From NCBI RefSeq assembly GCF_024734665.1, contig NZ_CP102931.1:4152001-4216000 (forward strand): a DNA stretch of 64,000 nt, in the 5' to 3' direction. Shown piece after piece: positions 36,101 to 56,900 of the stretch; positions within the stretch are counted from its first letter, which is position 1; every line of letters begins with the position of its first letter. The notes below the pieces were generated by a model. It was not told where the DNA came from. It did not search any database and saw nothing but the letters and a program-made list of their open reading frames with translations. The stretch comes from Variovorax paradoxus (GTDB taxonomy: Bacteria; Pseudomonadota; Gammaproteobacteria; Burkholderiales; Burkholderiaceae_C). Both the position numbers and the translations under genes were made by a program.

Positions 36101-36133
36101 TATTTAGGGCATATTTAGGGCACGACTAGGGCA
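36101..36133 (+). repeat. Three 11-bp tandem repeats ending at the integrase start codon
   Basis: TATTTAGGGCA, TATTTAGGGCA and CGACTAGGGCA follow without gaps; the last A is the A of the integrase ATG. An arm-type or autoregulatory binding site for integrase or excisionase is likely. Confidence 0.6.
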
Positions 36134-37533
36134 TGGCGAAACTTACTGTTCGGGCGATCGAGGCTGCCAAGCCACGAGAAAAGCCGTACAAGCTCACGGT
36201 AGACACCGGGCTACATATCCGCGTCGCAGCCAACGGAGAAAAGCGGTGGCTCGTCAAATACGTGGTTGACGGCAGGCAGCGAGAAGCCCGCCTCCCCAAG
36301 CCTTATGGGAGCAGCGGCGAAGGGTTTATGGGAGTGGCTGACGCCGCCGCTGAGAACGCAAGAATTCAATCGCTAGCCCGGTCCGGCATTGACTTTCAGC
36401 AACAGGCGGCGGAAGCCCTGGCCAAGGAACGCCAAGCAGCAGAGCAGCTGCGTGCCACCCTGCTCCCATTTTCCGAGATGTTCGACGCATGGCTGTCGAC
36501 CGGCGTGCTGCGTAAAGACGGTAATGCAGAACTGCGCAGGTCCTTCCAAAAAGACGTCCTCCCCGCTATCGGCAACAAGCCGATCAAGGAGTTGACGGAA
36601 CACGATCTTCGTAAAGTTCTCACCTCCATCGTGGAACGCGGCCGCAACCGCATGGCGGTGCGCGTTTATCGCGACCTCGTTCAACTGTTCGCATGGGGCG
36701 AGAAACGCAAGCCTTGGCGAGAATTGCTCATAGAGCAGAACCCCGCCGAGTTACTCGAGATCGAAAAAATCGTCGCTCCCGAGTACGACATCAACGATGA
36801 GCGCGAACGCGTGCTGTCGCCGGATGAACTACGGGAGCTTCAGAATGTCTTCCACCACATGCGAGAAGCGCGGCAAAACGCCAAGGACAAGCGCGCCGTT
36901 TCCCATGGCCTGAAGCGCGAAAGTCAAATTGCAATCTGGATTTGCTTGTCCACCCTTTGCCGCATCGGCGAGTTGCTGATGGCCGAGTGGGAGCACGTGG
37001 ACACGGAAACTGGCGTCTGGCGCATCCCGAAGAAAAACACCAAGCAAACTAATGCCAGGCAGCAGGACCACATCGTCTACCTAAGCGCCTTTGCTCTGCG
37101 GCAGTTTCAGGCGCTCAAGGCACTTCAGAGCGACAAGATCGGTCCCTGGTGTTTCCCCGCGCGCAACGCCAAGAAAATCAACAACGCCGAGAACACACAC
37201 GTGTGTTTGAAAAGCGTGTCGAAGCAGATTGGTGACCGACAGACCATGTTCAAGGAACGCAAGGCGCTTAAGAACCGAACCAACGACAACACGCTAGTGC
37301 TTGCCAATGGCACCAATGGGGAATGGACGCCGCATGACATGCGCCGCACGGGTGCCACGATGATGCAGCGGGCAGGCATTGGCTTGGACATCATCGACCG
37401 GTGCCAGAACCATGTGCTCGGTGGCAGCAAGGTGCGGCGGGCATATTTGCACCATGACTACGCGCCTGAGAAGCGAGCGGCATGGGATCTGCTGAGTCAG
37501 AAGATCGAAGAAGCACTGAGCATGCAAGGGTAG
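36133..37533 (+). CDS. Tyrosine site-specific integrase, P4 type
   Basis: 466 residues. N-terminal DUF4102-type arm-binding domain (MAKLTVRAIEAAKPREKPYKL, given by its first residues MAKLTVRAIEAAK), then a SAM-like core-binding domain (about 110-200) and a catalytic domain. Catalytic residues: arginine in TLCRIGELL, HDMRR box in TPHDMRRTGATMM, and tyrosine in the C-terminal RAYLHHDY. It integrates a genomic island at a tRNA 3' end, here tRNA-Pro(GGG). Expression may be self-limited through the 11-base repeats at the start codon. Confidence 0.93.
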   Translation: MAKLTVRAIEAAKPREKPYKLTVDTGLHIRVAANGEKRWLVKYVVDGRQREARLPKPYGSSGEGFMGVADAAAENARIQSLARSGIDFQQQAAEALAKERQAAEQLRATLLPFSEMFDAWLSTGVLRKDGNAELRRSFQKDVLPAIGNKPIKELTEHDLRKVLTSIVERGRNRMAVRVYRDLVQLFAWGEKRKPWRELLIEQNPAELLEIEKIVAPEYDINDERERVLSPDELRELQNVFHHMREARQNAKDKRAVSHGLKRESQIAIWICLSTLCRIGELLMAEWEHVDTETGVWRIPKKNTKQTNARQQDHIVYLSAFALRQFQALKALQSDKIGPWCFPARNAKKINNAENTHVCLKSVSKQIGDRQTMFKERKALKNRTNDNTLVLANGTNGEWTPHDMRRTGATMMQRAGIGLDIIDRCQNHVLGGSKVRRAYLHHDYAPEKRAAWDLLSQKIEEALSMQG

Positions 37534-39691: not shown

Positions 39692-40522
39692 ATGCTCAAT
39701 TTCTTTCTCAAGCGCTTCTTCGATGCGTTCGACCGCATCGACATTTGGATTGACCTGCACCCCGGCCAAGAATGGGTCGACAGCCTGCCCGAGAAGGTCA
39801 CCATCGATCCGGTCAACGTCCCCTACAACCCGCGCTGGAAATACGTTCTTCGCGTGCTTCAGCCCGACGCGAGCACCCTGCGCTTCCTTCAACGCATGCT
39901 GGGCATTCGCATTGCAGCTCAGGTCGCGTACGTCGAGATTGCCCGGGACTATCCGGTCCGTTGGAAGGTTGATGCGCAGCGCCTCGAGCGTTACTTTCTT
40001 CGCACGATCACGATGCGATACGGACCGGCGCAGGTGACCAAGCACAAGAACACGCACTACTTCGGAAAGCCCCACGCTCCCCGTCGCCTCGTCACCTACT
40101 CCGATCGCAAGTCCAAGCTGGCCACCGCCGCGCAAGGCCATCGCTGCTTGCACACCGAGATCCGCTTGCAAGAGACGCAACTGATTGAGCGGATAGGTCT
40201 CGGCACCGTCGAAGCACTGATCGACTTCAAATTCAGCAAGTTCTGGGCAACGCAGGTCCGCTATCACGCGTTTGGCAACCGGGCCGCGATGGGGACCGCG
40301 CTGAGTCGATCCGCTTGCCGAGGTACTGGGGATGGTGCGCTTCAGGCTCGTATTCGCCGGGCGCTCACGAGCCCGAAGTACACAGCAGGCGACGCGTTCG
40401 TCCTCCAGATCCTGTGCCGGAAGCGCCCCTCGGTGACCAAGGCTCTGCTGCCGATGACTGCGAAGGCATGGCTGCGCGAAGCGGCCCGCGTCATCGCGGC
40501 GCCCCCTCGCGAGTGGCCCTGA
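39692..40522 (+). CDS. Probable replication initiation protein (Rep_trans-like)
   Basis: 276 residues. The middle shows HYFGKPHAPRRLVTYSDRKSK followed by CLHTEIRLQ, given here as YFG, TYSDRK and HTEIRL. The order YxG - YDK-like lysine - RxE matches rolling-circle initiators of the Rep_trans/RstA group, in which the tyrosine and acidic residues carry out nicking. The N-terminal half (RIDIWIDLHPG, WKYVLRVLQP) fits the DNA-binding part. Identification rests on motif order only. A terminator follows at 40566. Confidence 0.5.
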   Translation: MLNFFLKRFFDAFDRIDIWIDLHPGQEWVDSLPEKVTIDPVNVPYNPRWKYVLRVLQPDASTLRFLQRMLGIRIAAQVAYVEIARDYPVRWKVDAQRLERYFLRTITMRYGPAQVTKHKNTHYFGKPHAPRRLVTYSDRKSKLATAAQGHRCLHTEIRLQETQLIERIGLGTVEALIDFKFSKFWATQVRYHAFGNRAAMGTALSRSACRGTGDGALQARIRRALTSPKYTAGDAFVLQILCRKRPSVTKALLPMTAKAWLREAARVIAAPPREWP

Positions 40523-40565
40523 GGATCTGCACCTGGTATAGGTACCGGATCTTCATCCAGCCCCC

Positions 40566-40606
40566 GGCCCTCAACCGATCAAAACATCGTGTTGGGGGCC
40601 CTTTTT
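40566..40606 (+). terminator. Rho-independent terminator
   Basis: GGCCCTCAAC pairs with GTTGGGGGCC (one G-T pair), extended by CGAT/ATCG inside around a CAAAAC loop, and is followed by CTTTTTC. It ends the replication-initiator transcript. Confidence 0.8.
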
Positions 40607-40797
40607 CATGCGATTCAGAGCACTTTTCGCACCTCCACCCTCGGCCAAAACACCTCACTTTCTCGGCCGAAACACTACATCGAGTGCCCCATCCATCCTG
40701 CTCAATCAGAAGGATGGCGAAGGCCAAAGAGGCGGCAGATGCCAAGAGCTGCCGCCCTTCACTTCATCGATCAGCGTTTTCAAGGAGTTCCTTCATC

Positions 40798-42672
40798 GTG
40801 CCCATCAAGACCACAAGGGCCATGCGCCGCGTCATCCGTAGCACGGACAGATTCACCGAAGTCACAGCCGTCCCCGGTGGTGGCAAGACCACCACCGCCG
40901 TAGCTCGCGTTAAGCATCTTCTCAACCAGGATCCCGCTGCCCGAATTCAGATCCTTTCGGCCACCAACGCCACGGTCGTGAATTTCAGGCAACGCCTCCA
41001 GGCCGCCGACGTCAACATCAGCGCCGGCAGGGTCGAACAAGACGGCAGGACCAGCAAGGACGCCACCGTCAACGTGTCTACTATCCATGCTCTCTTCTAC
41101 GGCCTGATTCGTCGTCACCACCGTCGTCTTGGCTATCGTGCAGTTCCCGCGGTTGTCGATCCCTCCCGTTTGACCAAGATCCTCGAACGGATCGATGGCA
41201 GCTCTCACGCTGGGAAGACGGGTGCGAGTTTCTGCGCAGCTAAGCAGGGATCCGCAAGGAGGTCCGCTGTTCGCTCCAAGACCTCGACCGCCAAATTGAC
41301 CCGCGATCAGGCCTACGAAGATCACAAGCGTTCGTCCGGCGCGATTGACTACGACGACATGCTTCGGCTGGGTCTCTGTCTGATGGCCCAACTATCTGGC
41401 GAAGAACTAGGGATCGATCACCTGATCGTCGACGAATGGCAAGACTGCACGCCCACCCAGGCCAAACTGATTGCAGGGTTGGCCCAACGAGTGCAGACCA
41501 CGGCCGTGCTGGGCGATCGCCTGCAGATGATCTACGGGTTCGCGGGCGGCCGGTACACCTCGCTTCGTCGAGCGCTGGTCGAGGCTGGCGTCGTGCTGGT
41601 TGACGATGAGTCGAAGAAACACGTGCTGCGCCGGTCCCATCGGCTGACAGCCGAGATCGCAGATCTTGCTCAAGCCGTGGCTGCGCCTTTAGATCCACCC
41701 GCCATCAAGACCGACAAGACGGGCACAGCTCCGGCGTTGATCCAGGCGTCGGATACACGCACCCTGGCCAGCACCGTGGCGAAGCGCGTAAGCAAACTGC
41801 TGCGACGGGGCGTGCCGCCCTCCGAAATCGCGCTGTTGGGTCGCACGCGAGCCGTTCTCCACCCCTTGGCACAGGAACTCGCCGCCCGCAACGTAGCGAC
41901 GTTGCTCGCCGGATCCGACGGCCACTACCAGGCCGTCCTAGATGTGCTGTGGCTAGTCGACAAGTTCGAGGACCTGCGTGACTATGGGATCGGCCTTGAC
42001 GCCAGCACCGGCGGTCGCCGTGCCCGCATGACGGCCGAATTGGAGGCCGAGATGCGCGATAGGCTGGGCCTAGACGATTCAGCCTGGCTGATCGATCTAT
42101 CCGGCGCCACGGAGGACTACGGTGCCGACCCGAATGTCAAGACCACGCGGATGGTTCTTCCGAAGCTCGAGAAGTGGGACCAGTTTGTTAACGAGTTCCT
42201 CAACATCACCGGCGGAAAAAACACGGAGGGCGCATACAGAGCTTGCGTCCGTGCGTACTTGAGGCTTCACGGCGGTGTCAACGCCAACAAGGTGCTACGC
42301 AACGCATTGAATCGATGGGAGCCTCTGTCCCGACGCTTCGCGTGCGCCGCAGAGATGAGCGTCCATATCCAAGAGATCGCCGGCACCGGCGCGATTACCT
42401 GCTCCACCATCCATGCCGCGAAGGGCATGGAGTGGGACTACGTCTTTGTGATTGGCGTCACAGAGGGTGTGCTACCCGATCGCCGCTCGACGACGGTTGA
42501 AAAGTTGGACGAGGAGCGCCGCGTCCTCTACGTAGCTATCACCCGCGCACGCAAGCGGATTTGGCTGGGCCACTCGCCAATCAAGGTAAGTGGCGTCCGC
42601 CGCGAATACTCAAAGCTGAGCCGTTTTCTCGTCGAGCCGGGGGTGCAGGCCGCCTTGCAATGTGCAGTTTGA
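40798..42672 (+). CDS. UvrD/Rep-like superfamily 1 DNA helicase
   Basis: 624 residues from GTG 40798, with AAGGAG about 10 bases upstream; the open frame extends to 40315 but the upstream part crosses a terminator. Helicase motifs in order: Walker A AVPGGGKTTTA, LSATNATVVNF (Ia), HLIVDEWQDCTPTQ (II), LGDRLQMIYGFAGG (III), STIHAAKGMEWDYVFV (V) and LYVAITRARKRIWLG (VI). It unwinds DNA using ATP. A helicase beside a rolling-circle-type initiator suggests a role in replication of the excised island. A Lys/Arg-rich insertion lies at about residues 135-170. Confidence 0.9.
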   Translation: MPIKTTRAMRRVIRSTDRFTEVTAVPGGGKTTTAVARVKHLLNQDPAARIQILSATNATVVNFRQRLQAADVNISAGRVEQDGRTSKDATVNVSTIHALFYGLIRRHHRRLGYRAVPAVVDPSRLTKILERIDGSSHAGKTGASFCAAKQGSARRSAVRSKTSTAKLTRDQAYEDHKRSSGAIDYDDMLRLGLCLMAQLSGEELGIDHLIVDEWQDCTPTQAKLIAGLAQRVQTTAVLGDRLQMIYGFAGGRYTSLRRALVEAGVVLVDDESKKHVLRRSHRLTAEIADLAQAVAAPLDPPAIKTDKTGTAPALIQASDTRTLASTVAKRVSKLLRRGVPPSEIALLGRTRAVLHPLAQELAARNVATLLAGSDGHYQAVLDVLWLVDKFEDLRDYGIGLDASTGGRRARMTAELEAEMRDRLGLDDSAWLIDLSGATEDYGADPNVKTTRMVLPKLEKWDQFVNEFLNITGGKNTEGAYRACVRAYLRLHGGVNANKVLRNALNRWEPLSRRFACAAEMSVHIQEIAGTGAITCSTIHAAKGMEWDYVFVIGVTEGVLPDRRSTTVEKLDEERRVLYVAITRARKRIWLGHSPIKVSGVRREYSKLSRFLVEPGVQAALQCAV

Positions 42673-42679
42673 GCTGAAG

Positions 42680-42990
42680 CAGCGGATGCTGGGAAGAGCC
42701 CTGCTCGACGAACGCCTACTCGAACCGATTCGGGTGGTCGAAGCTGTTGAGCAGCACGCTCACCGTCAGGACGATTCACCAAGCCAAGGGGATGGAATGG
42801 GACTATATCTTCGTGATCGGAGTGACGGGCGGCGTACCCCCCGACACCCAGAGTCAAAAGAGCAACTGGACGAGGAACGCCGGCTACCGAATATAGCCGT
42901 CACGCGCACCAACAGTGCCTATGTCTGCACCACGCCCCGATGTGGAGCCGACACGCGCGCCAGACGTTCACCAAGGAATCGCGCTTCATG
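42680..42990 (+). pseudogene. Decayed, frameshifted C-terminal fragment of a second UvrD-like helicase
   Basis: One frame reads RTIHQAKGMEWDYIFVIG then GVTGGVPPD, matching motif V of the intact helicase just upstream. After a shift the next frame reads EQLDEERRLPNIAVTRT, matching EKLDEERRVLYVAITRA of motif VI. The rest is broken. It is a diverged tail from a duplicated or replaced helicase, not functional as it stands. Confidence 0.7.
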
Positions 42991-43206
42991 ACCAGCAAGG
43001 CCGTGAAAGCCTCACTAAAGAAGTGAGGCTGGCTTCGAGCGGCTATCGCCGCTAGGGGCCGCTACAAGACCACCGAGCCGGCAGGCGCTGCAGAACACCA
43101 CGGACCCGCCCCCCGAATTTCCGTTTGCGGCTGCCATTCCATCAGCAGCCTGACGAGCCCAAGCTGATTGAAGAGGACAGGTCAAAGCGACGCCTCGCCT
43201 TTAGAT

Positions 43207-43236
43207 TTGACATTGTCATATATTTTTTGCTAATCT
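43207..43236 (+). promoter_or_regulatory. Sigma-70 promoter with overlapping 11-bp palindrome
   Basis: TTGACA (43207-43212), 18 bases, TAATCT (43231-43236), then a 19-base leader and GGAGG 5 bases before ATG 43256. TGACA-T-TGTCA (43208-43218) is a perfect palindrome over the -35 element, a good repressor site for the XRE protein of the same operon. Confidence 0.7.
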
Positions 43237-43255
43237 TCTGACACTGGAGGTTCTC

Positions 43256-43825
43256 ATGAGCGACGGACCATATCGAAGCTTGCCGATGTCCCGGGCCTGG
43301 AAACGGCTGGCAAAGCTTGCAGAAAATGCCAATTTCGATCCGACCGACACGGCTACTGCGGCGATGCGCGCCCTCGCGAGTACCTGGGCCAGCGAGGTTC
43401 CGTCCCAGGTATCCAAGGGCCTACGGGACGTATTCCTTGCCAGCGAGCCCGGCTTGTTCGGCGATGGCCAGACGACGCAGGCACAAGCGCTCTCCAGTAA
43501 CGCTGCCGGTTTCGGGCTGGGCCGTTTGCTGACGGAACATGCCGTTGTGGTGCTCGCGGAAGGGATGCACGGCGAAACTGCTCTGGGAGAAACGGTCCAG
43601 CGGGCGCTCCATGCATATGCGGCTAGAGCGGCGCGGCAGATAGAAGAGCACTATTGCCGTCAGGCCTCCGGCAAACTCACCCGACAAGTCCGCGAGCGCA
43701 TTGCAGGAGCAATTGCGACGGCTGATTTCAGCGGGCTCGCCAAGCAATGCTCGGGGCTGGAGTCAAAGGTAAGCGGCCTGCGCCCCACCAAGCACACCTC
43801 CCTCGATGACGGGGTGTCACTATGA
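43256..43825 (+). CDS. Unknown helical protein, first gene of a QueC-like/XRE-ImmA/PIN operon
   Basis: 189 residues with a strong GGAGG ribosome binding site. Almost entirely alpha-helical and Ala-rich (TATAAMRALASTWASEVPSQ, FGLGRLLTEHAVVVLAEGM, LHAYAARAARQIEEHY). No signal peptide, membrane segment or recognised catalytic motif. Its last four bases overlap the start of the QueC-like gene (ATGA), so translation is coupled. It may be a scaffold or small subunit of the complex; family not recognised. Confidence 0.75.
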   Translation: MSDGPYRSLPMSRAWKRLAKLAENANFDPTDTATAAMRALASTWASEVPSQVSKGLRDVFLASEPGLFGDGQTTQAQALSSNAAGFGLGRLLTEHAVVVLAEGMHGETALGETVQRALHAYAARAARQIEEHYCRQASGKLTRQVRERIAGAIATADFSGLAKQCSGLESKVSGLRPTKHTSLDDGVSL

Positions 43826-45216
43826 CCGCAAAAGTCAGCGCTACGTCGCAGGAACATGCAGGCGCCAACGTGAGGGTCGATGTGACCGAAGCTGGTGAAC
43901 GTGCGCGCCGTGGACGTATCACCTGCGAAATCGGCGGGGACCTCGAGTTCTCGACGCAACACCTGGAAAGCTACTGCCTCGCTCAGTGGGAGCCGGTCAT
44001 TTTCGACGCCCTCGTCGTTACGGCCGCCGCCGAGTTTTGCGACCGCATCCAAAAGCGGCAGGCACACCACTGGGGTCGCGAGATTGAATTGCGGGTCCCC
44101 GTCCACGATCCCGAGCGCTGGAATGCACGGTCTGTCGCCCTACCCCTGAAGGATGCGCTCGACTTCTTGACCGGGGATCGCTGGACGCTTTCTTTTGTCG
44201 CACGGCGGGCCCAGGCGTTCGTACCACAGCAAGCGTCGCTCGACATCCCGGGTGACTGCAGCGCGGTCATCCCTTTCAGCGACGGCCTTGACTCCAGAGC
44301 CGTTGCCGGTCTCATGCACCGCGAATTGGGAGACCGACTGATAAGGGTACGGCTAGGGTCGAAAGAGTTCCGGCCCGTCACGGGAACGTCCGGCATGAAG
44401 CAGCCGTTTACGTCGATTCCTTATCGGGTCAAACCAAGGACCCGTGAATTTGTTGAATCCAGCGCGCGTTCCAGAGGGTTCAAGTTCTCCATGATCAGTG
44501 GGATTGCGGCTTACATGGTCAAAGCCGACCAAATCATCGTGACTGAAAGCGGCCAAGGCTCGCTCGGTCCTGCGCTCGTTCCCGTCGGCCAAGCCTACGA
44601 GGACTATCGCACCCATCCGCTCTTTACCGAGCGAATGGAGAAGCTGCTCAAGGGCTTGTTCGGTCGCGAGTTTCATTTCGTGTTCCCAAGACTTTGGAGC
44701 ACGAAAGGCGAGACGCTCGCGGCGTTTGCCCGTGAGTGCGAGGACGGCTCGTCCTGGAACACCACCTGGTCATGCTGGCAACAAAACCGGCACTCCTCGG
44801 TTGCCGGGCGCAAGCGTCAATGCGGCATTTGCGCGGCCTGTTTCTTGCGAAGGCTCAGTGTTCATGCGGCAGGCCTTGAGGAAGTTCCCGAGACCTATGT
44901 ATGGGAAAACCTGTCGGCAAGCTCGTTTGAGGCCGGTGCCGCTTCTGCATTCAATCGGATCACGAGCGCGCATCGAGAATATGCCATCGCGGGTGCCTTG
45001 CATCTCGACCATCTCGCGACCATCAGGTCGTCGCCCGCAAACCACGGAACGCTGGACCTTGCGGTCTCTCAACTCAGTCGATCCCGCTCGATCCCGGCGG
45101 CAGAGGTCAGAACCTCTCTTAATCGACTGCTCGACAAACATGAAAGTGAATGGATGCAATATCTTGGCTACCTCGGGCCGAACTCGTTCATAGCGGACTG
45201 GGTTCCGCGGCGATGA
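43822..45216 (+). CDS. QueC-like PP-loop ATP-dependent enzyme
   Basis: 464 residues. A PP-loop motif IPFSDGLDSRAVAGLM (a variant of SGGxDS) lies near residues 154-165. The C-terminal half has a zinc-binding cysteine group RKRQCGICAACFLRRLSVHA (core CGICAAC), as in QueC, the enzyme that makes 7-cyano-7-deazaguanine. The long N-terminal region (about 150 residues) and C-terminal 100 residues are not found in housekeeping QueC. Extended QueC-like proteins are known in phage defence (QatC, CBASS-linked QueC). No other queuosine genes are nearby, so a protein- or nucleic-acid-modifying role is more likely than preQ0 synthesis. Overlaps both neighbours by four bases. Confidence 0.78.
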   Translation: MTAKVSATSQEHAGANVRVDVTEAGERARRGRITCEIGGDLEFSTQHLESYCLAQWEPVIFDALVVTAAAEFCDRIQKRQAHHWGREIELRVPVHDPERWNARSVALPLKDALDFLTGDRWTLSFVARRAQAFVPQQASLDIPGDCSAVIPFSDGLDSRAVAGLMHRELGDRLIRVRLGSKEFRPVTGTSGMKQPFTSIPYRVKPRTREFVESSARSRGFKFSMISGIAAYMVKADQIIVTESGQGSLGPALVPVGQAYEDYRTHPLFTERMEKLLKGLFGREFHFVFPRLWSTKGETLAAFARECEDGSSWNTTWSCWQQNRHSSVAGRKRQCGICAACFLRRLSVHAAGLEEVPETYVWENLSASSFEAGAASAFNRITSAHREYAIAGALHLDHLATIRSSPANHGTLDLAVSQLSRSRSIPAAEVRTSLNRLLDKHESEWMQYLGYLGPNSFIADWVPRR

Positions 45217-46400
45217 CCGACTCTCCACTCAGTCAGCTCCCCGTCGCCGAACTGGGCGAACGAATAAGACTTGCGCGCGAGGCGGCAGGATTGACGCAAA
45301 AGCAGGCTGCGGACGCGATCAACGTCGCGCGTACGACGCTTGTCGCAATCGAACAAGGCCAGCGCCGCGTAAAAATGGATGAGCTCCAGCGGCTATCGAA
45401 GCTTTATCAGACCTCAGTGAACGCAATCATTCGCCGCGAGGCCGTTCACGTGGATCTCGTTCCGCGATTTCGCAAACTGCTTGGCAGCGAAGACTCAGCA
45501 GCAACCAAGGCGACTGAACTTCTTGCCAATCTCGCGCGCGCCGAAGTCGAACTGGAAAATCTACTCGGCATAAAGCGCTCACGCAACTACCCTCCCGAAC
45601 GCCCTATCCTGTCCGGCGATGTCCGAATGCAGGCGGAGCAGGATGCCCTTGAACTCAGGCAACGCCTCGGGCTGGGCTTCGCTCCCGCAATCGATGTCGT
45701 GACTCTCCTGGAAATGGAGCTAGGAATTCGCGTCTATGTGAGGCGCTTCGATGGATCGGTCTCGGGTGTCTTTGCCTACGACGAAACGCTCGGCGCATGC
45801 ATCCTGTTGAACGCCAACCACCCGAGAGAGCGACGGAATCAGACTGCTGGGCACGAACTGGGCCACTTCATTTCAGTACGGAACACCCCGGAAGTGCTTC
45901 ATGCAGACGAACCCGAAAACTCGCGGGAAGAGCGCTATGCAAATGCGTTTGGCAGGTCATTCATGACGCCCGCCGTTGCCGTAAGGCAGAAATTCCAGGA
46001 AGTGACGGCCGGCTCGTCCCGGCTTACGCGGCGCCACGTCATCGTCCTCTCCCACTTTTTTGGCGTGTCCCGGGAGGCAATGGTGCGGCGCATGGAAGAA
46101 CTTGGCCTCACGAAGAAAGGAACCTGGGATTGGTTCTCGGAGAACGGTGGAATCACGGACGAACAGGCAAGTCAGGTTCTTGGCGACCTCAAGGCTTTGG
46201 ACCCGCAAAAGGCCGAGGCGAATCGGCCCACGACCCTTAGGCTTAATCTCCTTGCGGCCGAAACCTATCGGCAGGAACTGTTGAGCGAAGGACAGCTCGC
46301 CCGTCTGTTGCAGCTCGACCGGGTCGAGTTGCGCGAAGTGCTTCATGACATGGAAGGTCAGGAGGAAGAGGCTGATGGAGCCCCAACCCTTCTTGCTTGA
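45213..46400 (+). CDS. XRE-family HTH fused to an ImmA/IrrE metallopeptidase
   Basis: 395 residues from ATG 45213 (four-base overlap with the QueC-like gene). XRE HTH at about residues 12-68 (LGERIRLAREAAGLTQKQAAD, VARTTLVAIEQGQR). ImmA/IrrE (COG2856) zinc protease domain with the HExxH motif TAGHELGHFIS near residue 216 and a downstream glutamate in SREERYANAFGRSFM. The family cleaves repressors or antitoxins after a stress or phage signal. The last 70 residues form an extra domain. Probably binds the palindrome over the operon promoter. Confidence 0.88.
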   Translation: MTDSPLSQLPVAELGERIRLAREAAGLTQKQAADAINVARTTLVAIEQGQRRVKMDELQRLSKLYQTSVNAIIRREAVHVDLVPRFRKLLGSEDSAATKATELLANLARAEVELENLLGIKRSRNYPPERPILSGDVRMQAEQDALELRQRLGLGFAPAIDVVTLLEMELGIRVYVRRFDGSVSGVFAYDETLGACILLNANHPRERRNQTAGHELGHFISVRNTPEVLHADEPENSREERYANAFGRSFMTPAVAVRQKFQEVTAGSSRLTRRHVIVLSHFFGVSREAMVRRMEELGLTKKGTWDWFSENGGITDEQASQVLGDLKALDPQKAEANRPTTLRLNLLAAETYRQELLSEGQLARLLQLDRVELREVLHDMEGQEEEADGAPTLLA

Positions 46401-46995
46401 CAACGAACTGCTCGTCCTCGACACAAGCATCGTCATAAACCTGAACGCAACTGGATGTGCCGAAAAAATTCTTCGGGCACTCCCTCATCGAGTCACCGTG
46501 GTTGATGTCGTCGTCGGTGAGCTTGAGTACGGCAGGTCAAAGGGACGCGGCGACGCGGCAATGCTCGCCGACCTCGCCAAGGCCGACGCCGTAACCATCG
46601 CCAGCCTTGGCGAGTTCGCGCTTCAACATTTCGAAAGTCTGGTCGTCGGCGCGAGTGCGGAAACGCTGGACGACGGAGAAGCTGCAACGATCGCGTATGC
46701 AATCGATGCAAAGGCCCGCGCGGTCATTGACGAGCGAAAAGCAACACGTCTTTGTTCGAACCGGTTTCCGAACGTCACCCTGAAGAGCACCATTGATCTG
46801 CTTTCACACCAAGCCGTACAGGAGTCGCTTGGGTTGCCACATTTGGCCGATGCGCTTCATAAAGCGTTGCTTTCCGCACGCATGCGTGTGCCTCCGCACC
46901 ATATGAACTGGGTGGTCAACCTCATCGGGAACGAGCGCACTGCGGCCTGCCGGTGTCTTCCAGAAATTGTTCGTCAGGCCGCGAGAAACGCATAA
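46375..46995 (+). CDS. PIN-domain ribonuclease-like protein
   Basis: 206 residues from ATG 46375 with GAGGAAGAGG upstream, overlapping the previous gene by 26 bases. PIN motifs: LLVLDTSIVINL (first aspartate), VVVGELEYGR (glutamate), TLDDGEAATIAYA (acidic pair) and ARAVIDERKA (last acid). This matches the metal-binding set of PIN nucleases, which act on RNA and are common toxins. XRE-ImmA followed by a PIN protein is a recurring toxin-antitoxin-like pair. Here it is attached to a QueC-like enzyme. Confidence 0.8.
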   Translation: MEPQPFLLDNELLVLDTSIVINLNATGCAEKILRALPHRVTVVDVVVGELEYGRSKGRGDAAMLADLAKADAVTIASLGEFALQHFESLVVGASAETLDDGEAATIAYAIDAKARAVIDERKATRLCSNRFPNVTLKSTIDLLSHQAVQESLGLPHLADALHKALLSARMRVPPHHMNWVVNLIGNERTAACRCLPEIVRQAARNA

Positions 46996-47024: not shown

Positions 47025-48242
47025 CTAGTGGGATTTTTCGCTGCGGCGTCCGGCGACTACCAGCCTGGCGGAGTCCGGGTCATAGATGTACTGCGTGATA
47101 GATCCGTCCTTGATGCGCTCGACGGCTTCGTCGACAACGAACAGCGGTACGAGGAACCACTCGCGCGGAACCACGGGCTTGCCGAATCGATCCTTGATGT
47201 CGATGTCCAAGCGGGCCGGATCGAATACGCGATGGATCAGGTTTTCGAGCTTGACGCGGTTGATGTTATAGAGGTCGTAGGTGGCGACGACTTCCACGTC
47301 GGCTAGCAGGAAGGTTGCTTCGTTCTTCGCGTTGGCAAAGCGCGCGGCAATATTGCTGCGCCCCGTCACCCCGATCTTGTGCAGCACGTCGCGGTTGGAA
47401 GCGACGATGGGAAGGTCCGATTTGCTGCGGAGAACGTAGATCGTGCCGCTCTCCTGGTCGTCTTCCGATACTTCATCGGAGAACAGCGGACCGGCGGAGG
47501 GATTGATGACGAGTCGCGCCGCTTCGTCGCGGTAAAGGGCGCGTTGAAACGAGCGTTGCAGCACGTCGCTTTCGGTGCCGTTGTCATAGATGACGCGAAG
47601 GCGGCTATCCCGACGTTCGTATTTCGTCCGAATGTCATCGCCCACCTCTGCGATGTATGCGAGCTGGCCTTCCACGATGAAGAACTCACCCTGCTGAATC
47701 TCGGTCAGCTTGAGTTCGTCCAGCTTGTGGACGGCATGTGTTTCGCGGATGCCTTCCTTGATCTCGCGCTGCACGCAATCAAAGAGCGGCTTGAACGTCT
47801 CGAAGTCTTCGCATGGCTGGCGCTGCGCGATTTCTTCGGCGGCGCGCTTCTCGGTACTCGTACGAACATGACGCAGGACGGTGATGTCCTCAGCGCCGGC
47901 TGCGCCCGCCAGTTCGGCCGCCAGCTCGTCCACGTCGATAGCCTCCTCGGTTGCGGCGACGCTAGACGCGCCCGCAAGCAATCCTTGATGATCCAGCGGT
48001 GTAAGCAGGGCGCGGCAATCCGCAAGCGCGCGCAAACGATCGAGGCGCACGGCGTATAACCGCTCGAAAATGTCGCGCTCTTCCCCGTGTTGCGGTACAC
48101 GGCCATGCTTCTCAAAGAACCGCTGAATCTCCTCGAAGCCAGCAATGATGCGCTCCTCGCGCGGGGGACGTCCGCCCTTTTTCTCAGGCGCGGCGAAGTC
48201 GGAAAGTTCTGCCGCCAGTTCGTCGAGGCCAGGATCACTCAT
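47025..48242 (-). CDS. GIY-YIG nuclease family protein (T5orf172 type)
   Basis: 405 residues from ATG 48242, whose start overlaps the helicase stop. The N-terminal half is acidic and helical (DELAAELSDFAAP, IIAGFEEIQRFFEKHGRVPQ). The nuclease domain is at about residues 262-345: GTIYVLRSKS (GIY strand), VLHKIGVTGR (YIG strand), and NRVKLENLIHRVF with the catalytic glutamate. Last gene of a methyltransferase-helicase-nuclease operon. It likely supplies DNA cleavage. It ends only 29 bases from the convergent PIN gene. Confidence 0.82.
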   Translation of the reverse strand: MSDPGLDELAAELSDFAAPEKKGGRPPREERIIAGFEEIQRFFEKHGRVPQHGEERDIFERLYAVRLDRLRALADCRALLTPLDHQGLLAGASSVAATEEAIDVDELAAELAGAAGAEDITVLRHVRTSTEKRAAEEIAQRQPCEDFETFKPLFDCVQREIKEGIRETHAVHKLDELKLTEIQQGEFFIVEGQLAYIAEVGDDIRTKYERRDSRLRVIYDNGTESDVLQRSFQRALYRDEAARLVINPSAGPLFSDEVSEDDQESGTIYVLRSKSDLPIVASNRDVLHKIGVTGRSNIAARFANAKNEATFLLADVEVVATYDLYNINRVKLENLIHRVFDPARLDIDIKDRFGKPVVPREWFLVPLFVVDEAVERIKDGSITQYIYDPDSARLVVAGRRSEKSH

Positions 48243-50298
48243 AGCGCCCCTCCGCCCTGAAGCGCATGAAGGCCGACGCCCCCTCGGCCATGCGTCGCTC
48301 CCATACATCTTGCGAATCGAGCGCAGGCACACGGCCGCGCTCCTTCTTGAATTGCGCTGCGCGTTTGGCGAGACTGAGCGCATCTTCCGGCGTCAGGTTC
48401 GTGCGCTTGGCGGAGATAGCCGCCGCGACCTGTTTCAGGCTTTCCTCGCTCATGGTCTTGGCAAGGATGGCGTAGGCCTCGCCGAAAGGATTGATACGGT
48501 CGATGAGGTCAATGTCCAACTCGCGCACGTCCATCGCAAACCGGCGCACGCCATCGATCAAGGCTGTGTTGGCTGACGGCTCGGCGCCGTCATTGCCTAA
48601 GACAAGCTGTTTGGCTTGTTGCGTCAAATTGAGGGCAGCAATGGCGTGCTGCCGGACTGCCTCCTGATCCTCTACATCAAGCTCGGGATACTTGTCCTTG
48701 ATGATCTTGCCTAGGCGAAGTTGGGTCAATTCCTCGGGCACCAGCTCGTCGTCGAATAAGCCGCGCTCGACTGTTGTTCTGTCCTGAATGAAGGTAGCGA
48801 TTACCTCGTTGAGGTCTTCCTGGCAGATCCGAACGGCTTCCTTGCTCTTGGGTTCAATCAGGCCCTTAATTTCGATCTGGAACTGCCCCGTCTGCTCGTT
48901 GAAGCCAACATTGCACCTCTCCGGGTCGTAACCGCCGTCACCGTAGTCAAAACCCAAAGCGGGGCCGCTTTCGGGGTTCTTAGGCTTGAACTCGAAGCGC
49001 GGCGCGAGAACCTGCTCCATCAGCAAGCTCGCGGCGATGGCCTTGAGAGTGTCATTGACAGCCTCAGTGACGGCTTCCTCAGAAGCGTCAGGCTCGGCAA
49101 TTAAGTTTGTGAATCGCGCGCGGGTCTTGCCGGGCGCATCACGAGTCGCGCGCCCGATTATCTGCACGATCTCGGTAAGGCTGGCACGATAGCCGACGGT
49201 GAGTGCGTGTTCGCACCAAATCCAATCGAACCCCTCTTTCGCCATACCCAACGCAATAATGATGTTTACATAGTCCCGATTGTTCTTCTGCGCTGGATCT
49301 TTAAGTGCAGCAGAAACGCGGTCGCGCTTCGTGGGGTCGTCGTCAACAAGATCGGCGATGCGAAGCACACTACCTTGCGGTGTTTTGACAAGCTGAAAGC
49401 CCGTTGCGGCGTCGCTGCCTTGCCACTCACCCAGCGCCTCGATGATGTGTTCTACCTCTCGCAATTTGTCTTTCGTGCTTTCGCGCGAATTGACGTTGGG
49501 AATGTGGATGATCGTCCGCTCGGCGGGGTCGAGGACATCGAGGATGTCATCGATATATGGCCCGCTATAGAAGAAATAGCCGATATCGAGCTGTTTAAGG
49601 TACTGGTAACCGTTGAGCTGCTCGTAGTAAGTATAGGTAACGGCGTCGAACTTCGATTCATCCTGCGAAGCGAGTACAGCCTCGGCGTCGCCCCGGAAAT
49701 AAGAGCCGGTCATCGCAACGACGTGAACGCGGCCTCGTGCAATGAACCGCCCAAGATGCAGGCCGAGCTTGTTGTCAGGGTTTGCGGAGACGTGGTGAAA
49801 TTCATCTACAGCGATCAGCCGGTCATCGAACCGCTCCACACCATACGCATCGACAGCAAAGCGAAACGTTGCGTGGGTACAGACCAGCACCTTGTCAGTG
49901 CTTTCGAGGAACGTGCCGACCGACTTCACCTTGCCACCGTTGTCGCTGTCGTTGCCGGGCGCGTTGCATAGGTTCCATTTCGGCTCGACGTGCCAGTCGG
50001 CCCAGAAGCCAAACTCCGACAGCGGCTCGTCGTTGAAACTCGCGCCAATAGACTTTTCCGGTACGACAACGATAACTTGCTTCAAGCCCTGATTCTGGAG
50101 CTTGTCGAGCGCGACGAACATCAGCGCGCGGCTCTTGCCTGACGCTGGCGGCGACTTGATAAGCAGATACTGCTCCCCGCGCTTTTCATAGACGCGCTCT
50201 TGCATCGGCCGCATCCCGAGGGCATTGGCGTTGGTGGACGACCCGTTGCGAGCGTAGGTGACGGAAACCGAAGGGATGGATCTGTTCTTGTCGTTCAT
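48235..50298 (-). CDS. SF2 DEAD/DEAH-box helicase of a restriction-like operon
   Basis: 687 residues. Walker A LIKSPPASGKSRALM, VVVPEKSIG (Ia), motif II RLIAVDEFHHV, motif III VVAMTGSYF and motif VI EIVQIIGRATRDAPGK. The C-terminal 280 residues are helical and include KKERGRVPALDSQDVWERRM. Similar to type III/I restriction translocases. Start overlaps the methyltransferase stop by four bases (ATGA). Probably an ATP-driven translocase between target recognition and the GIY-YIG nuclease. Confidence 0.88.
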   Translation of the reverse strand: MNDKNRSIPSVSVTYARNGSSTNANALGMRPMQERVYEKRGEQYLLIKSPPASGKSRALMFVALDKLQNQGLKQVIVVVPEKSIGASFNDEPLSEFGFWADWHVEPKWNLCNAPGNDSDNGGKVKSVGTFLESTDKVLVCTHATFRFAVDAYGVERFDDRLIAVDEFHHVSANPDNKLGLHLGRFIARGRVHVVAMTGSYFRGDAEAVLASQDESKFDAVTYTYYEQLNGYQYLKQLDIGYFFYSGPYIDDILDVLDPAERTIIHIPNVNSRESTKDKLREVEHIIEALGEWQGSDAATGFQLVKTPQGSVLRIADLVDDDPTKRDRVSAALKDPAQKNNRDYVNIIIALGMAKEGFDWIWCEHALTVGYRASLTEIVQIIGRATRDAPGKTRARFTNLIAEPDASEEAVTEAVNDTLKAIAASLLMEQVLAPRFEFKPKNPESGPALGFDYGDGGYDPERCNVGFNEQTGQFQIEIKGLIEPKSKEAVRICQEDLNEVIATFIQDRTTVERGLFDDELVPEELTQLRLGKIIKDKYPELDVEDQEAVRQHAIAALNLTQQAKQLVLGNDGAEPSANTALIDGVRRFAMDVRELDIDLIDRINPFGEAYAILAKTMSEESLKQVAAAISAKRTNLTPEDALSLAKRAAQFKKERGRVPALDSQDVWERRMAEGASAFMRFRAEGRYE

Positions 50299-53063
50299 GC
50301 GTATGCCCTCGTCTTGCGCTTCTTGGCGCTGACCGGTGCAGCCGCAGCAGTCATCTTGGTATAGAGGTCGAACAGCTTTTCCAGCCGCTCGGTGTCGTTC
50401 TTAAACCGGCGACCGATGTAGATGCGCTCCAGTACTTCATCATTGCGCTCATGCGCGGCACGCAAGTCGTCGGGCATGTTGTCAGGACCGTAGAGATCAG
50501 CGATGGTCGCCGGAAAATGATGCTCACGCGCGAGCAAGATTTCTTCGGCACAACGCGTGAGATCCGCCTTGTTCTTGTCGGTAAGTGTCGGCACAGGAAA
50601 TGTGTTCCAGCCCAGGGTGTTCGAGTATGAGAAGTCCGTGCGCATACGGACACATACCGTAGCAATCCATTGAGCGTGTAATCGGCTTGCAACCATGCTG
50701 AGTGTCCACAGCGGCGGGTCATAGATGACTGCGGCCTTGTTAGAAATGACCGTATCAGGGTCCGTCAATCCAACCGGCAAATACTCTCGGTTTTCACTAG
50801 TGATACTCGGCACTATCAGTGCGTCTTTATCCTGATGAGGTGTATAGACAAATCGGTGCGGACGATCAGCCTTATCCTGCGACTGTTTTCCCTTGCTCCC
50901 TTGTCTCGCAGCTCTCACTGCCTCTATTCGAAGTGCGATGGGTGGGATGGCCATGGCTTGTTGCAGCTGAGCATCTTCAATCCATAGACACCATCGACTA
51001 CTAGAAGAGGTGAACTCTCTTGAACCAACGAGCTTCTTAAGAAGTGGTATGGCCTCCGGGTAGTCTTTGGTTAGTTGATTTTTTTCGTCGATCGACAGAA
51101 TCAAATGCCCACCGTCGGAAGGTTTGTTCCCATAATCCATAGTTGGAAGGCCGCTGATGGACTTGCTGAGCTGCGAAACGATGACGTCCTGTCCGTCCAG
51201 CAGATACGCATTGATGTTTCGTGCAGACTTCTTTGTTTCCTGTTCGTAGATGTACCTGTTTGAAATCGGTGAATTCGATATTCCAACAACCACCACAGTC
51301 ACCCCTGCGTTTCTCGCAGCCATATTCTTCCAGGTGAAGGGGCGATGAGCGAATCTAATTCCAAAGCCACGCTCAAATATCAGAGGCCAAAGCATAGAGA
51401 CTTGGCGGCCCTGAGTGATCGATTTCGTCGCGACTAGTGCGGCATCGCAGTTCACCTGTTGACCATATTCAGCCGCCTTGAGAAACCACGCTGCAACGTA
51501 GTCAAGGTCCTTGTACGAGTCAGTATGGGGTGAAAACACCGCCTCCATCTCTGATTGCTGCTCAAGACTTCGCCACTGGCTTCCAAGGTACGGGGGGTTC
51601 CCACAGATGTACGTCTCGCCACCTTCGTTCTCGAAATCGATCTCTGCTTGATCGAGCGGGGTACTAAACAGGTCGTCCGCTTGCATCTTTACGGCAGTAC
51701 CCGTTGGTGGGCAGATGCTTAGCCAGTCGAGCCGCAGGGCATTGCCGCAGGTAATCCAATTTTCGTGGCGCAAGGGCAGGAATTCGGCGAGGGCCAACCT
51801 CTGCCCCCGGTACAGCACATCGCATTGGTATTCGGCGATGATCAGTGCGAGGCGCGCGATCTCTGCCGGGAAATCGCGCAGTTCGATTCCGCGAAAGTTC
51901 GTGAGCGGGATCTCCGAACTGCGGTCGGGCTCGCCGCGCCGCTTATTAATCTCGGCCTCGATGACCCGCATTTGCTTGTAAGCGATGACAAGAAAGTTGC
52001 CGGAGCCGCAGGCCGGGTCGAAGATCCGAATTTTCTCCATGCGCTTGCGCAGATTGAGCAAGGTACGGGGGTTGTCACCAGCCTCTTCCAGCCGCGCGCG
52101 CAGATCATCAAGGAATAGCGGATTAAGGACTTTGAGAATGTTGGGGACACTGGTGTAGTGCATCCCCAGTTCGCCTCGCTCCTCATCGTCGGCGACCGCC
52201 TGAATCATTGACCCGAAAATATCAGGATTGATCTTGGTCCAGTCCAACCCACCAACGTGGAGCAAGTAGGAACGTGCAATCTTGCTGAAATTCGGGACTT
52301 CCACACTACCAGAGAACAACTGCCCATTCACGTACGGAAAGGGATCGGCCCAACGGGGAGTTTCCAGCCCCTCGCGTTCAGAGGGCTTCGTGTTCATCGC
52401 GCGAAACAGTTCGGAGATCACCTCATGGGTATTGGATGAGTCCTTCGCGCTCATCTGGGCGATAGTTTCTGTGAAACGCCCCCTACCAACAAAGATGTCG
52501 GTGTCTTCTGCAAAGAAGCAAAAGATGAGTCGCGCCATGAAGTGATTCATGTCATGGCGGCGCTCAGCTTTGCCCCATTCGGGATTGTCCTTCAACAGTT
52601 CGACGTAGAGGCGGTTGAGGCGGCTGGTCGCCCGGATGTCAAAGGCGTTCTCGCTGATCTGCCGGACGGTGGTGATGCCCGCAAGCGGCAGAAAGAACCC
52701 AAAATGATCGGGAAAATCCTTATAGGCGCAGGCGACCGTGACCCCGCTCGTTAAGTCCTCAGCCTCAAGATCCGCGCCGTCCGTTGCGAGGATGAACTTC
52801 GCCTTTGCCCGGACGGTTGCCGGGCTGTCTTTCAGCGCCCTGAGCGTCTTCGTGACCTGGCCGTCGTCACAGGAGGCAATGTGGATGTTGTTAGTTTGGA
52901 GAACGCCGCCGAGATCGGATTTGTTCGTCGCACCGCTACGCAGGCGTTGGATCGTCGTCGCCTTGTTGCCGAAGGCTTCAAGAAAGGCATATGGAAAATT
53001 CTCGCCATCGAACGATTGCTCCGCAAGATCGGTGACGGCCTGTTCTATCTCAACGGCGTTCAA
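50295..53063 (-). CDS. MmeI-type class I SAM-dependent DNA methyltransferase
   Basis: 922 residues, the usual length of MmeI-type proteins, from TTG 53063 with AGGGG upstream. SAM-binding motif I IRIFDPACGSGNFLVIAY near residue 350 and the amino-methyltransferase motif IV YICGNPPYLGS near 490 point to N6-adenine methylation. A helical spacer precedes, and target-recognition and C-terminal helix domains follow. MmeI enzymes have an N-terminal PD-ExK nuclease; here the first 150 residues show no convincing D...ExK set. It probably methylates the host site while the helicase and GIY-YIG protein do the restriction. Confidence 0.88.
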   Translation of the reverse strand: MNAVEIEQAVTDLAEQSFDGENFPYAFLEAFGNKATTIQRLRSGATNKSDLGGVLQTNNIHIASCDDGQVTKTLRALKDSPATVRAKAKFILATDGADLEAEDLTSGVTVACAYKDFPDHFGFFLPLAGITTVRQISENAFDIRATSRLNRLYVELLKDNPEWGKAERRHDMNHFMARLIFCFFAEDTDIFVGRGRFTETIAQMSAKDSSNTHEVISELFRAMNTKPSEREGLETPRWADPFPYVNGQLFSGSVEVPNFSKIARSYLLHVGGLDWTKINPDIFGSMIQAVADDEERGELGMHYTSVPNILKVLNPLFLDDLRARLEEAGDNPRTLLNLRKRMEKIRIFDPACGSGNFLVIAYKQMRVIEAEINKRRGEPDRSSEIPLTNFRGIELRDFPAEIARLALIIAEYQCDVLYRGQRLALAEFLPLRHENWITCGNALRLDWLSICPPTGTAVKMQADDLFSTPLDQAEIDFENEGGETYICGNPPYLGSQWRSLEQQSEMEAVFSPHTDSYKDLDYVAAWFLKAAEYGQQVNCDAALVATKSITQGRQVSMLWPLIFERGFGIRFAHRPFTWKNMAARNAGVTVVVVGISNSPISNRYIYEQETKKSARNINAYLLDGQDVIVSQLSKSISGLPTMDYGNKPSDGGHLILSIDEKNQLTKDYPEAIPLLKKLVGSREFTSSSSRWCLWIEDAQLQQAMAIPPIALRIEAVRAARQGSKGKQSQDKADRPHRFVYTPHQDKDALIVPSITSENREYLPVGLTDPDTVISNKAAVIYDPPLWTLSMVASRLHAQWIATVCVRMRTDFSYSNTLGWNTFPVPTLTDKNKADLTRCAEEILLAREHHFPATIADLYGPDNMPDDLRAAHERNDEVLERIYIGRRFKNDTERLEKLFDLYTKMTAAAAPVSAKKRKTRAYA

Positions 53064-53942: not shown

Positions 53943-56900
53943 TCACTGCCAGTTGACCGCAATCACCGAGTTCAGGCTGCTCTGGTAGTTCGGCGGTAGC
54001 GTGGTCTGCCCCGCAGCCGGCGGAGAAAAGCTCGCCATCGCCTGCACCAGGTTCTGCACGTTGCTGTCGCTCAGCACACGGCCATCGCTGGTCCTGAACT
54101 GCTCCACGTGGTACTGGCTACCCAGGTACCAGTTGTTCAAGGTGAACTGGTCGGAAGACCCAATCACGCTCACCTCGAGGTTGTTGCCAACCTGCCTGAA
54201 CCACAACTGGTCAGTCGCGATGTCGGCACCAAACAGCGCCACGTCGGCGTTACTCGCTGTGGCGTCGTTCTCCACGATGGAGTCACTGCCCTGACCTCGA
54301 CCCATGCGGTAGGTGTCGTTGCCGGCACCGCCCGTCAGTGTGTCGTTGCCCGCGCCGCCATCGAGCACATTGGCAACCGCGCTGCCCGTGAGGGTGTCGT
54401 TGAAGCCGCTGCCCGTGAGGTTCTCGATGTTCTGCAAGGTGTCGCTGCCCGAACCGCCCGTGGCCTGCGCGCTGGTGACGGCCAAGCTCACCGTCACGGC
54501 CGAGCCGGCGTAGAGATACGAAGCGGTGTCCAAGCCGCCCTGTCCATTGAGCGTGTTGTTGCCAGCGCCGGCATACAGGATGTTGTCGAGCGTGTTGCCG
54601 GTGCCGTTGATGGCACCCGTGGCGTTTAGGCGCAGGTTCTCGACGTTGGTGGCCAGCGTGTGCGTGAGGGTCGAGATCACCGTGTCGCTGCCCTCGCCTG
54701 CCAACTCGGTCACCACGTCCGATGCGTTGTCCACGTAGTAGGTGTCATCACCCGTACCGCCCTTCATCGTGTCTGCGGCACCCAACCCGTCGAGCACGTC
54801 GTTGCCAGCGTTGCCTGTCAAGGTGTTGGCCGCGCTGTTGCCGGTCAGCACGTTGTCCAGCGCATTGCCTGTGCCGTTGATCGCCGTCGTGCCCGTCAGC
54901 GTCAGCCTCTCGACGTTGGCGCCCAATGTGAAAGTCACACTGGACTCGACGGTGTCGGTGCCTTCGCCAGCGTTCTCGTTGACGATGTCAGTGGCGGAGT
55001 CCACAACGTAGGTGTCGTCTCCCGTGCCGCCGCTCATCGTGTCATTGCCGGTCCCGCCGATCAGCCGGTCGTTGCCCGCGTTGCCGATCAGCGTGTCGTT
55101 GCCTGCCTTGCCGTCAATGGTGTCGTTACCCGAGCGGCCGGTCAGAGTCTCGGCCGACGTGGTTCCGTTGAGCGTGAGGTTCTGCACCGTCACTGCGATG
55201 TTGAATACGTCCTGGACGGCAAGGCCGCCCTGGTCGGTCGCAGTCACCCGCACGCTCAGGGCATCCAGCGCGCCGATAGGGACCGTGCCAGTGAACTTGC
55301 GTGTGCTGGCATTGAAACTGAGCCATGACGGCAATGCCGTGCCATCCGCGAGTGTGGCCACATAGCTGAGGCTGTCACCCGCGTCCGGGTCGGTAAAGGA
55401 ACCCGACGGAACGGTGTAGTTGATCGCAGTGCCTTCGGCCACGCTCTGGTCGGCCAGCGGTGTGGCGACGACAGGGCTCTGGTTGGGTGGCGTGACATTC
55501 AGATTGACATAAATGCCGGTGCCCGAACCGTAGTTGTCGGTGCCCCAGAGCACGAATTGCAGGCTGCCAACGTTGGCCGATGTCGGCGTGCCCGAGAAGG
55601 TTCGCGTCTGCGCATCGAAGGACAGCCAAGACGGCAGCGGATCGCCGTTGGACATCGTGGCGCTGTAGATGACCGAATCCCACACATCGGGGTCGGTGAT
55701 GGTGTTGACCGGCACCACGTAGCTGAAGACAGTGCCCTCGCTGGCCTTCAACGTCGGCAGGAAGCTGTTGACCGTCGGCGCGTGGTTGTTGTTGGCCCGG
55801 TCCACCACCGTCTGGATCATGGTCTGGTCCCACACCGTGCCGTTGGCAAACTCGATGTGATCGATCTTGTGGTCCTGCGTCACACCGCCGCTCTGGGTGT
55901 TGGCGCCGTAGTAGTCGAGGAACGCGATCTGGTCGGAAGTGCCCTTGATCTTGAAGAAGATGTGACTGCCTGACTGGAAGGCCAGTACGTCGTTCTCGCC
56001 GATGCCGGCGCCAAAGCGCAGCGTGTCGAGCGCGTCCAGTGCGTCGGTGTTGTCGATGGTGTCCTGGCCGTCGCCCGCGTTGAACACATAAACATCGTCG
56101 CCAGCACCGCCCGAGAGGAAGTCGTTGCCCTGACCGCCCGTGAGCAAGTTGTTGCCGTCATTGCCCCAGAGGCCGTTGGCCAGGCCATTGCCTGTGGCGT
56201 AGAGATCGTCCGCGCCGTCCAGCGCAAGCCGCTCGACGTTGGCCCCCAGGGTCCAACTGACAGAGGAGCGCACAAAGTCGTCGCCTTCGCCGGCGTTCTC
56301 GATAATGATGTCGCCGGCATCATCGATCTCGTAATAGTCGTCACCAGTGCCGCCGATCAGCGTGTCCTGGCCTTCGGAGCCGAACAGTGCATCGTCTCCG
56401 CCGCCGCCAATCAGTGTGTCGTTGCCGCCCAACCCCAGCAGGTTGTTGTCCGCATCGTTGCCGGTGATGACGTTGTCGAGGTTATTGCCGTTGCCGCGGT
56501 AGACGGCGCCACTCAAGATCAGGTTCTCGACGTTGTCGTCGAGGACGTAGGTAGTGTCGTAGTTGCGGACGATCGTGTCGATGCCTTCGTCCTGGTGTTC
56601 CGTCACCCAGTTGTCGTTTTCATCGACGATGTAGGTGTCGTTGCCCGCGCCGCCTTCCATGATGTCGTCGCCGAGGCCGCCATCGAGCACGTTGTCGCCG
56701 GCATTGCCGATCAGCACGTTGTCGCCATCGTCGCCGGTAGCATTGATGTCGAGGGTGCCAGTCAGGGTCACGTTCTCGATGTTCGCGATCTCCGAGACGG
56801 AGAAGCTTCGCCCGATCTCCACCGTGTCGAAGCCTTCGTCCTCGAACTCAATCACCACATCGCCTGCGCTGTCGACCACGTAGGTGTCGTTGTTCAGGCC

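Follow-up and report, generated by a model that had tools for sequence, protein, structure and literature searches.

Locus organization

The 64,000-nucleotide stretch of Variovorax paradoxus DNA analyzed here (contig NZ_CP102931.1, positions 4,152,001 to 4,216,000; hereafter the window) carries an operon of four co-directional genes at 43256–46995 on the forward (+) strand, on which all the operon features described below also lie. Gene 1 (43256–43825; 189 residues by the open reading frame (ORF) call) encodes a helical protein that occupies the place of QatB in Qat operons. Gene 2 (43822–45216; 464 residues) encodes a QatC-family protein, a predicted ATP-dependent ligase. Gene 3 (45213–46400; 395 residues) encodes an XRE helix-turn-helix (HTH) domain fused to an M78 (ImmA/IrrE) domain, predicted to be an RmrA-like antitoxin or repressor, and gene 4 (46375–46995; 206 residues) encodes a PIN-domain nuclease, the predicted toxin. 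Genes 1 and 2 overlap by 4 bases (ATGA), genes 2 and 3 likewise by 4 (ATGA), and genes 3 and 4 by 26; the last figure rests on the ATG at 46375, which is preceded by AGGAGG, the longest gene 4 ORF beginning at 46345. A GGAGG precedes gene 1. This copy of the operon sits on the 7.29-Mb single contig of the host.

An original prediction, made from the letters and their ORFs, had described four genes overlapping by 4, 4, and 26 bases behind one promoter in an integrase-bearing island, and the ORF coordinates bear the overlaps out. Both motifs it had read in gene 2, SDGLDS and CGICAAC, are present, as are the XRE HTH and HELGH of gene 3 (Pfam HTH_3 3.7e-13, M78 1.7e-14). The acidic set ascribed to the PIN nuclease (D16, E49, D100, E102, and D119) is invariant in 13/13 aligned copies of gene 4. 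The upstream integrase gene (36133–37533, + strand) was confirmed as a tyrosine integrase (PF00589 6.5e-15; Arm-DNA-bind_3 3.6e-10), and a promoter-like TTGACA stands at 43207, inside a palindrome. Gene 1 had been called an unknown helical protein; its AlphaFold2 model agrees, and Pfam, PADLOC, and NCBIfam searches returned no family above cut-off.

Conservation and distribution of the four-gene unit

By sequence comparison, the four genes are a strict unit. The comparison covers 34 distinct loci, namely the window, nineteen plasmid loci, two from a genome collection, and twelve from other genomes, with gene order taken from annotation plus profile or tblastn searches. Gene 2 is diverse across this set (pairwise identity 23–95%, mean 42%), and the four genes keep the same order in 34/34 loci, which is more than chance. 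The original prediction would have failed had the first two genes and the last two usually been separate; every locus holds all four. In PADLOC, the individual proteins match models of different systems. Irregular copies are few: gene 1 of L067 matched the profile at 2e-4 in one search and gave no match at 1e-3 in a differently cut search, gene 1 is split over two frames in L081, and gene 2 is split in the same way in L084.

Gene 2 (at least 80% coverage) was found in 25 of 72,556 plasmid records. Gene 3 (at least 50% identity) occurs in the same 25, after which identity falls to 31% (nine further records), and gene 4 occurs in these 25 plus one orphan copy (26 in all). Six of the 25 records were left unopened (three Labrenzia, two Rhizobium rhizogenes, one NT-25); every one of them has an opened counterpart listed at equal or almost equal identity. 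A further copy, the second in a Pseudorhizobium plasmid record, likewise lies outside the 34-locus set. The 26 gene 4 records were typed for mobility as 14 conjugative, 6 mobilizable, and 6 neither. Among 397 genomes of one order, gene 2 (E 1e-40 or better) is found in 10, and the same 10 carry gene 3 (E <1e-150), the next gene 3 relatives lying at 6e-38 and 3e-37. By score, carriers are infrequent, with 3/399 genomes in the host's family (gene 2 best E 1e-90 or better) and 2/369 in its class; 14 further genomes of the family have weaker QatC-like matches, and the seven opened comprise five of qatABCD type and two of another family. A search of genome contigs with a single protein gave two loci only. 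Database homologues, collected by sequence and not by gene context, number 153 for gene 1 and 2182 for gene 2; one eukaryote-labelled protein, P0084, which matches gene 1 at 55% over 77%, is probably contamination. No match was found as phage cargo in 50,697 phage records, and none was found in viral contigs in a scan limited to two short peptide patterns.

Gene 2, a QatC-like protein

Gene 2 is predicted to be an ATP-dependent ligase of the QatC family. Its PP-loop SDGLDS (44278–44295), the ATP pyrophosphate site, has S153, G155, D157, and S158 invariant in 23/23 sequences, and the one exception among the 34 loci is L068 (SGGMGS). The zinc motif CGICAAC (44821–44841) makes up, with C318, a set of four cysteines (C318, C334, C337, C340) that is invariant in 22/22. 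The protein matches QatC in PADLOC at 3.7e-33 and reaches the gathering score of PF06508 (28.1 vs 22); its 122.5 bits against NCBIfam QatC (NF041925) lie under the cut-off of 280, and a further membership test gave 18.4 bits against 150.3. The predicted model has the full QatC fold, with a QueC core and both N- and C-terminal extensions, and the nearest fold to this model is that of QatC, not Cap9.

The pocket carries a different signature. YEDYR, a Y-x-D-x-R motif (44596–44610), stands at the place of the QueC YPDCR and is aligned by HMMER with the YPDCR of QueC 2pg3, whereas QatC has STRTT there. Y-x-D is found in 30/34 loci and T-x-T at that position in 0/34, while the control set of qatC sequences has T-x-T in 6/6. 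Among the matches listed of the 2182 gene 2 homologues, 115 of 120 have Y-x-D, the window's own protein included.

Gene 1, a partner in the position of QatB

The gene 1 model has a mean pLDDT of 87.2, with residues 1–10 (mean pLDDT 82) modelled as ordered beside the first helix and residues 170–189 below 50; this flexible C-terminal tail ends LDDGVSL. Conservation is concentrated at the opposite end. Among 44 sequences, the only invariant columns are M1, D3, and G4, and 31/34 loci start M(S/T)DGP, the remaining three beginning R/Q-D and none MGTS. The rest of the protein diverges to below 20% identity, and this pattern of a nearly invariant start and a divergent remainder is as expected of a substrate N-terminus. 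M(S/T)DGP accompanies Y-x-D in 30/30 loci, and three of the four loci without Y-x-D also lack M(S/T)DGP (Fisher p 0.0007). The three exceptions sit on two basal branches of the tree (L068; L005 with L067), so that the co-variation reflects only one or two events and is not counted as proof.

Gene 1 appears from these comparisons to be a positional counterpart of QatB only. Straightforward homology to QatB was set aside: comparison of profiles was negative, Foldseek gave no match at E 0.001 or better, and VIA-align was weak. Assignment to DUF7114 (PF23426) was rejected, at 17.4 bits and a cut-off of 27. The tail sequence LDDGV (43802–43816) resembles the gene 4 PIN motif LDDGEAA (residues 98–104), and the SDGP at the start shares D-G with it; this likeness may be chance, or the sequence may be a mimic docking into a shared site.

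Genes 3 and 4, a predicted toxin–antitoxin-type pair

Sequence likeness points to genes 3 and 4 as a RosmerTA-type XRE-M78 antitoxin and a predicted PIN toxin. The HELGH of gene 3 (45852–45866) belongs to a set of residues (H214, E215, H218, E240) invariant in 13/13 copies, and HExxH is present in 34/34 loci. PADLOC matches gene 3 to RmrA (5.1e-25, residues 16–301), capP (2.3e-16), and capH (5.7e-7), and gene 4 to the candidate PDC-S70 (8.6e-11). Gene 4 matches its profile in 34/34 loci and Pfam PIN at 0.009, below that model's cut-off; its L(D/G)DGEAA motif is kept in 32/34 loci and absent from L067 and L100. Neither gene has an invariant run of residues at its N-terminus.

XRE-COG2856 fusions adjoining PIN genes are listed as predicted toxin–antitoxin (TA) systems in a 2009 report (PMC2701414), an ImmA-type antitoxin is described as established for RosmerTA (PMC10440598), and PIN partners are recorded for the XRE-M78 antitoxin class (PMC10440598, PMC2701414). 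L129 and L133 carry XRE-M78/PIN pairs that stand alone; L130, also a distant relative of gene 3, has no PIN gene in 4.8 kb, a stretch bounded by a contig end. Because such stand-alone pairs exist and RosmerTA and the 2009 prediction offer precedents, genes 3 and 4 look like a pair of this kind joined to a QatBC-like pair. An orphan relative of gene 4 (E 2.9e-67) lies at 5108–5749 of L132, a Microvirga plasmid, with no convincing match to genes 1–3 within 8.5 kb.

The promoter palindrome

The −35-like TTGACA lies within the palindrome TGACA-T-TGTCA (43207–43218; TTGACATTGTCA), a candidate operator that the XRE domain of gene 3 may recognise. The host genome (7.29 Mb, both strands searched) has a single exact copy of this sequence, and 7 matches with two mismatches allowed occur in the window against 2.4 expected. 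The pattern GAC[AT](N)TGTC is found 45–57 nt upstream of gene 1 in 32/34 loci, being absent from L068 and L080, and in 0.2% of first-order resampled upstream sequences. A second TGACA half-site (43239–43243) lies 17 nt before the start codon; TGACA at this place, immediately ahead of the ribosome site and within 28 nt of the start, is found in 23/34 loci. We infer binding of gene 3 at this site because XRE repressors usually control themselves.

Comparison with known systems

The operon resembles qatABCD in having a partner gene followed by a qatC-like gene, with a 4-base overlap as in Delftia qatBC. Gene 2 keeps the QatC fold, SxGxDS, and the zinc cysteines, the terminal extensions it shares with QatC are those that QatC requires for Qat defence, and the partner protein has a conserved extreme N-terminus. 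It differs in that gene 1 starts M(S/T)DGP rather than MGTS and lacks the long N-terminal tail of QatB, Y-x-D replaces the T-x-T of QatC (T278/T280), and XRE-M78 and PIN genes are added. No phmmer match to Delftia QatA (KAP ATPase), QatB, or QatD (TatD) was found in 34/34 loci; as a control, L012 matches all four Delftia Qat proteins, and five qatABCD loci match (L071 without qatB). The operon may work like part of Qat. It is not to be called Qat, because the T-x-T, MGTS, qatA, and qatD features all fail even though the QatC fold is common to both.

The other half of the operon recalls RosmerTA (RmrA/RmrT), in which an XRE HTH-M78 fusion also adjoins a toxin-type gene. Here, in contrast, two extra genes stand upstream in 34/34 loci, and the plasmid gene 3 clade is set apart, with at least 50% identity within and at most 31% outside. 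In the control of CBASS by CapH/CapP, an HTH repressor is cut by an M78 protease; gene 3 differs in carrying HTH and protease on one polypeptide, with a PIN gene in the operon. Type IV CBASS Cap9 (an NDG ligase) shares QueC descent, the Y-x-D motif, and a partner with a conserved N-terminus, but gene 2 has 464 residues and Cap9 is given as about 185 (PMC13329287). No CD-NTase or Cap10/transglycosylase match was found among the four proteins (Pfam, PADLOC, NCBIfam), and no paper on this gene set stood among the matches listed in a search of the open-licence literature.

Proposed mechanism

We give an even chance to the view that the locus is a composite defence-type operon, in which genes 2 and 1, as a QatBC-like pair of ligase and substrate, would be combined with genes 3 and 4, as a RosmerTA-like XRE-M78 antitoxin and its PIN toxin. 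The four-gene unit, the XRE-M78 and PIN identities, the gene 1 N-terminus, and the promoter palindrome are seen in the sequence, and the QatC fold comes from a predicted model. In the step we hold most confidently, gene 3 would bind TTGACATTGTCA, repress the four genes, and keep gene 4 inactive. Gene 2 would attach a small carboxylate, at the expense of ATP, to the gene 1 N-terminus (Ser/Thr after removal of Met), by analogy with Cap9 acting on its CD-NTase; QatC is thought to act likewise on QatB. Least confidently, whether gene 1 is modified, or bound, would signal infection to gene 3, whose protease would cut the repressor/antitoxin, its own or a sister copy, and so bring about de-repression. 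The PIN RNase would finally arrest the infected cell through RNA damage. The original prediction had proposed that a protease relieves repression or frees the toxin while the QueC-like enzyme modifies a partner; that reading is partly supported, in that the parts are seen in the sequence while the regulatory and modification steps stay conjectural.

The mechanism is least secure at two points, how gene 1 would signal to gene 3 and what the tag would be. CDG, although the obvious substrate, is questionable. Y-x-D makes it attractive, and QueE is recognised above the curated cut-off in 6/15 carrier genomes, the host included (TIGR04508 334.6 bits, cut-off 240; four QueE models). It is not recognised in the other 9/15, three of them listed as at least 98% complete and the only ones with a stated completeness, a count that does not take in the background QueE rate of these groups; CDG was accordingly dropped as a certain substrate. 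Y-x-D is kept without detectable QueE in G766, G765, G498, G805, G867, G994, and G1013, and G917 (locus L107) has lost the Tyr of Y-x-D with QueE present, so loss of the motif does not track loss of QueE. In a more specific form, which we put forward tentatively, the N-terminal Ser/Thr of gene 1 would receive from gene 2 a carboxylate resembling a nucleobase, one that is not CDG of host origin in every carrier, and release of the PIN RNase by the M78 protease would depend on whether gene 1 is tagged.

Alternative arrangements were weighed against the composite reading. Genes 1 and 2 might be the defence proper, with genes 3 and 4 an attached TA pair that kills if a phage blocks genes 1 and 2 or if the operon is lost. 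QatB and QatC alone are reported to protect E. coli against lambda-vir, and thus suffice against some phages (PMC13279940); XRE-M78/PIN pairs also occur independently, and one common promoter would hold the four genes in step. Mere attachment, however, predicts swapping or loss, and genes 1 and 2 are never without genes 3 and 4 in the 34 loci, nor is a close gene 3 ever without gene 2, which leaves this guard-like arrangement rather unlikely. A role of gene 1 as scaffold is less probable still. Gene 2 would then modify gene 3, gene 4, or the C-terminal tail of gene 1, whose N-terminus would serve as a docking signal rather than as the acceptor. The ordered N-terminus and flexible C-terminus modelled for gene 1, the reverse of the long flexible N-tail of QatB, fit this proposal, as does the missing small residue 2 in three loci. 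Yet the nucleophile in the chemistry reported for QueC and Cap9 is an amine (PMC13279940), a group that a C-terminal tail does not in itself supply; conservation in gene 1 is highest at the N-terminal residues, and genes 3 and 4 offer no comparable run.

We consider it highly improbable that the operon is a plasmid or island addiction module with no defence role, even though it occurs on 25 plasmids, many of the typed records are conjugative or mobilizable, and an integrase gene lies upstream at the window locus. A two-gene ligase pair would be superfluous for such a module, and the host copy lies on a 7.29-Mb contig, not a small plasmid. Neighbours in several loci, moreover, carry defence or TA names (AbiEii, Shedu, Lit, restriction enzymes), in a tally made without a control.

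Were the tag-gated form of the composite reading true, the operon would join two other protein ligase systems of QueC descent as a third, one whose killing effector lies within the operon itself. The 2026 paper on the structure of QatBC does not settle the reaction of QatC or the way it stops phage (PMC13279940). The present family is a natural contrast to Qat, with the same whole-chain fold, the Y-x-D pocket of QueC and Cap9, another, nearly invariant N-terminus on the putative substrate, and an operon that includes a nuclease, and this contrast makes both questions testable. Carriers without QueE are directly relevant to the question whether CDG is the group conjugated, and the family hints that ligases of the QueC type may serve as modules for coupling to unrelated effectors.

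Neighbouring genes and related arrangements

Just downstream, overlapping genes at 47025–53063 (− strand) encode an MmeI-type IIG restriction-modification protein (PADLOC 1.5e-287), a DEAD/ResIII helicase, and a T5orf172 (GIY-YIG-like) protein; by these matches, this is a second defence-type gene cluster. It is followed at 53943–62129 (− strand) by a gene for a 2728-residue protein with many glycine/aspartate-rich RTX-like repeats. On the other side, at 40516–43000, a GajB-like UvrD helicase gene precedes a short, broken stretch that echoes, by eye, its C-terminal motif region and is apparently a decayed duplicate.

A two-gene QatC-like arrangement was seen in five other loci (L072 2550–5445, L073 2830–5749, L076 3019–5107, L077 2638–5554, and L108 2685–5332), with no qatA, qatD, or gene 3–4 match in these stretches. 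A protein of about 260 residues starting MGH(V/I/Q)RLG is directly followed by a QatC-like protein of 450–710 residues, with T-x-T (ATRTTHP) in the four checked, which suggests another pair of ligase and N-terminal-glycine substrate.
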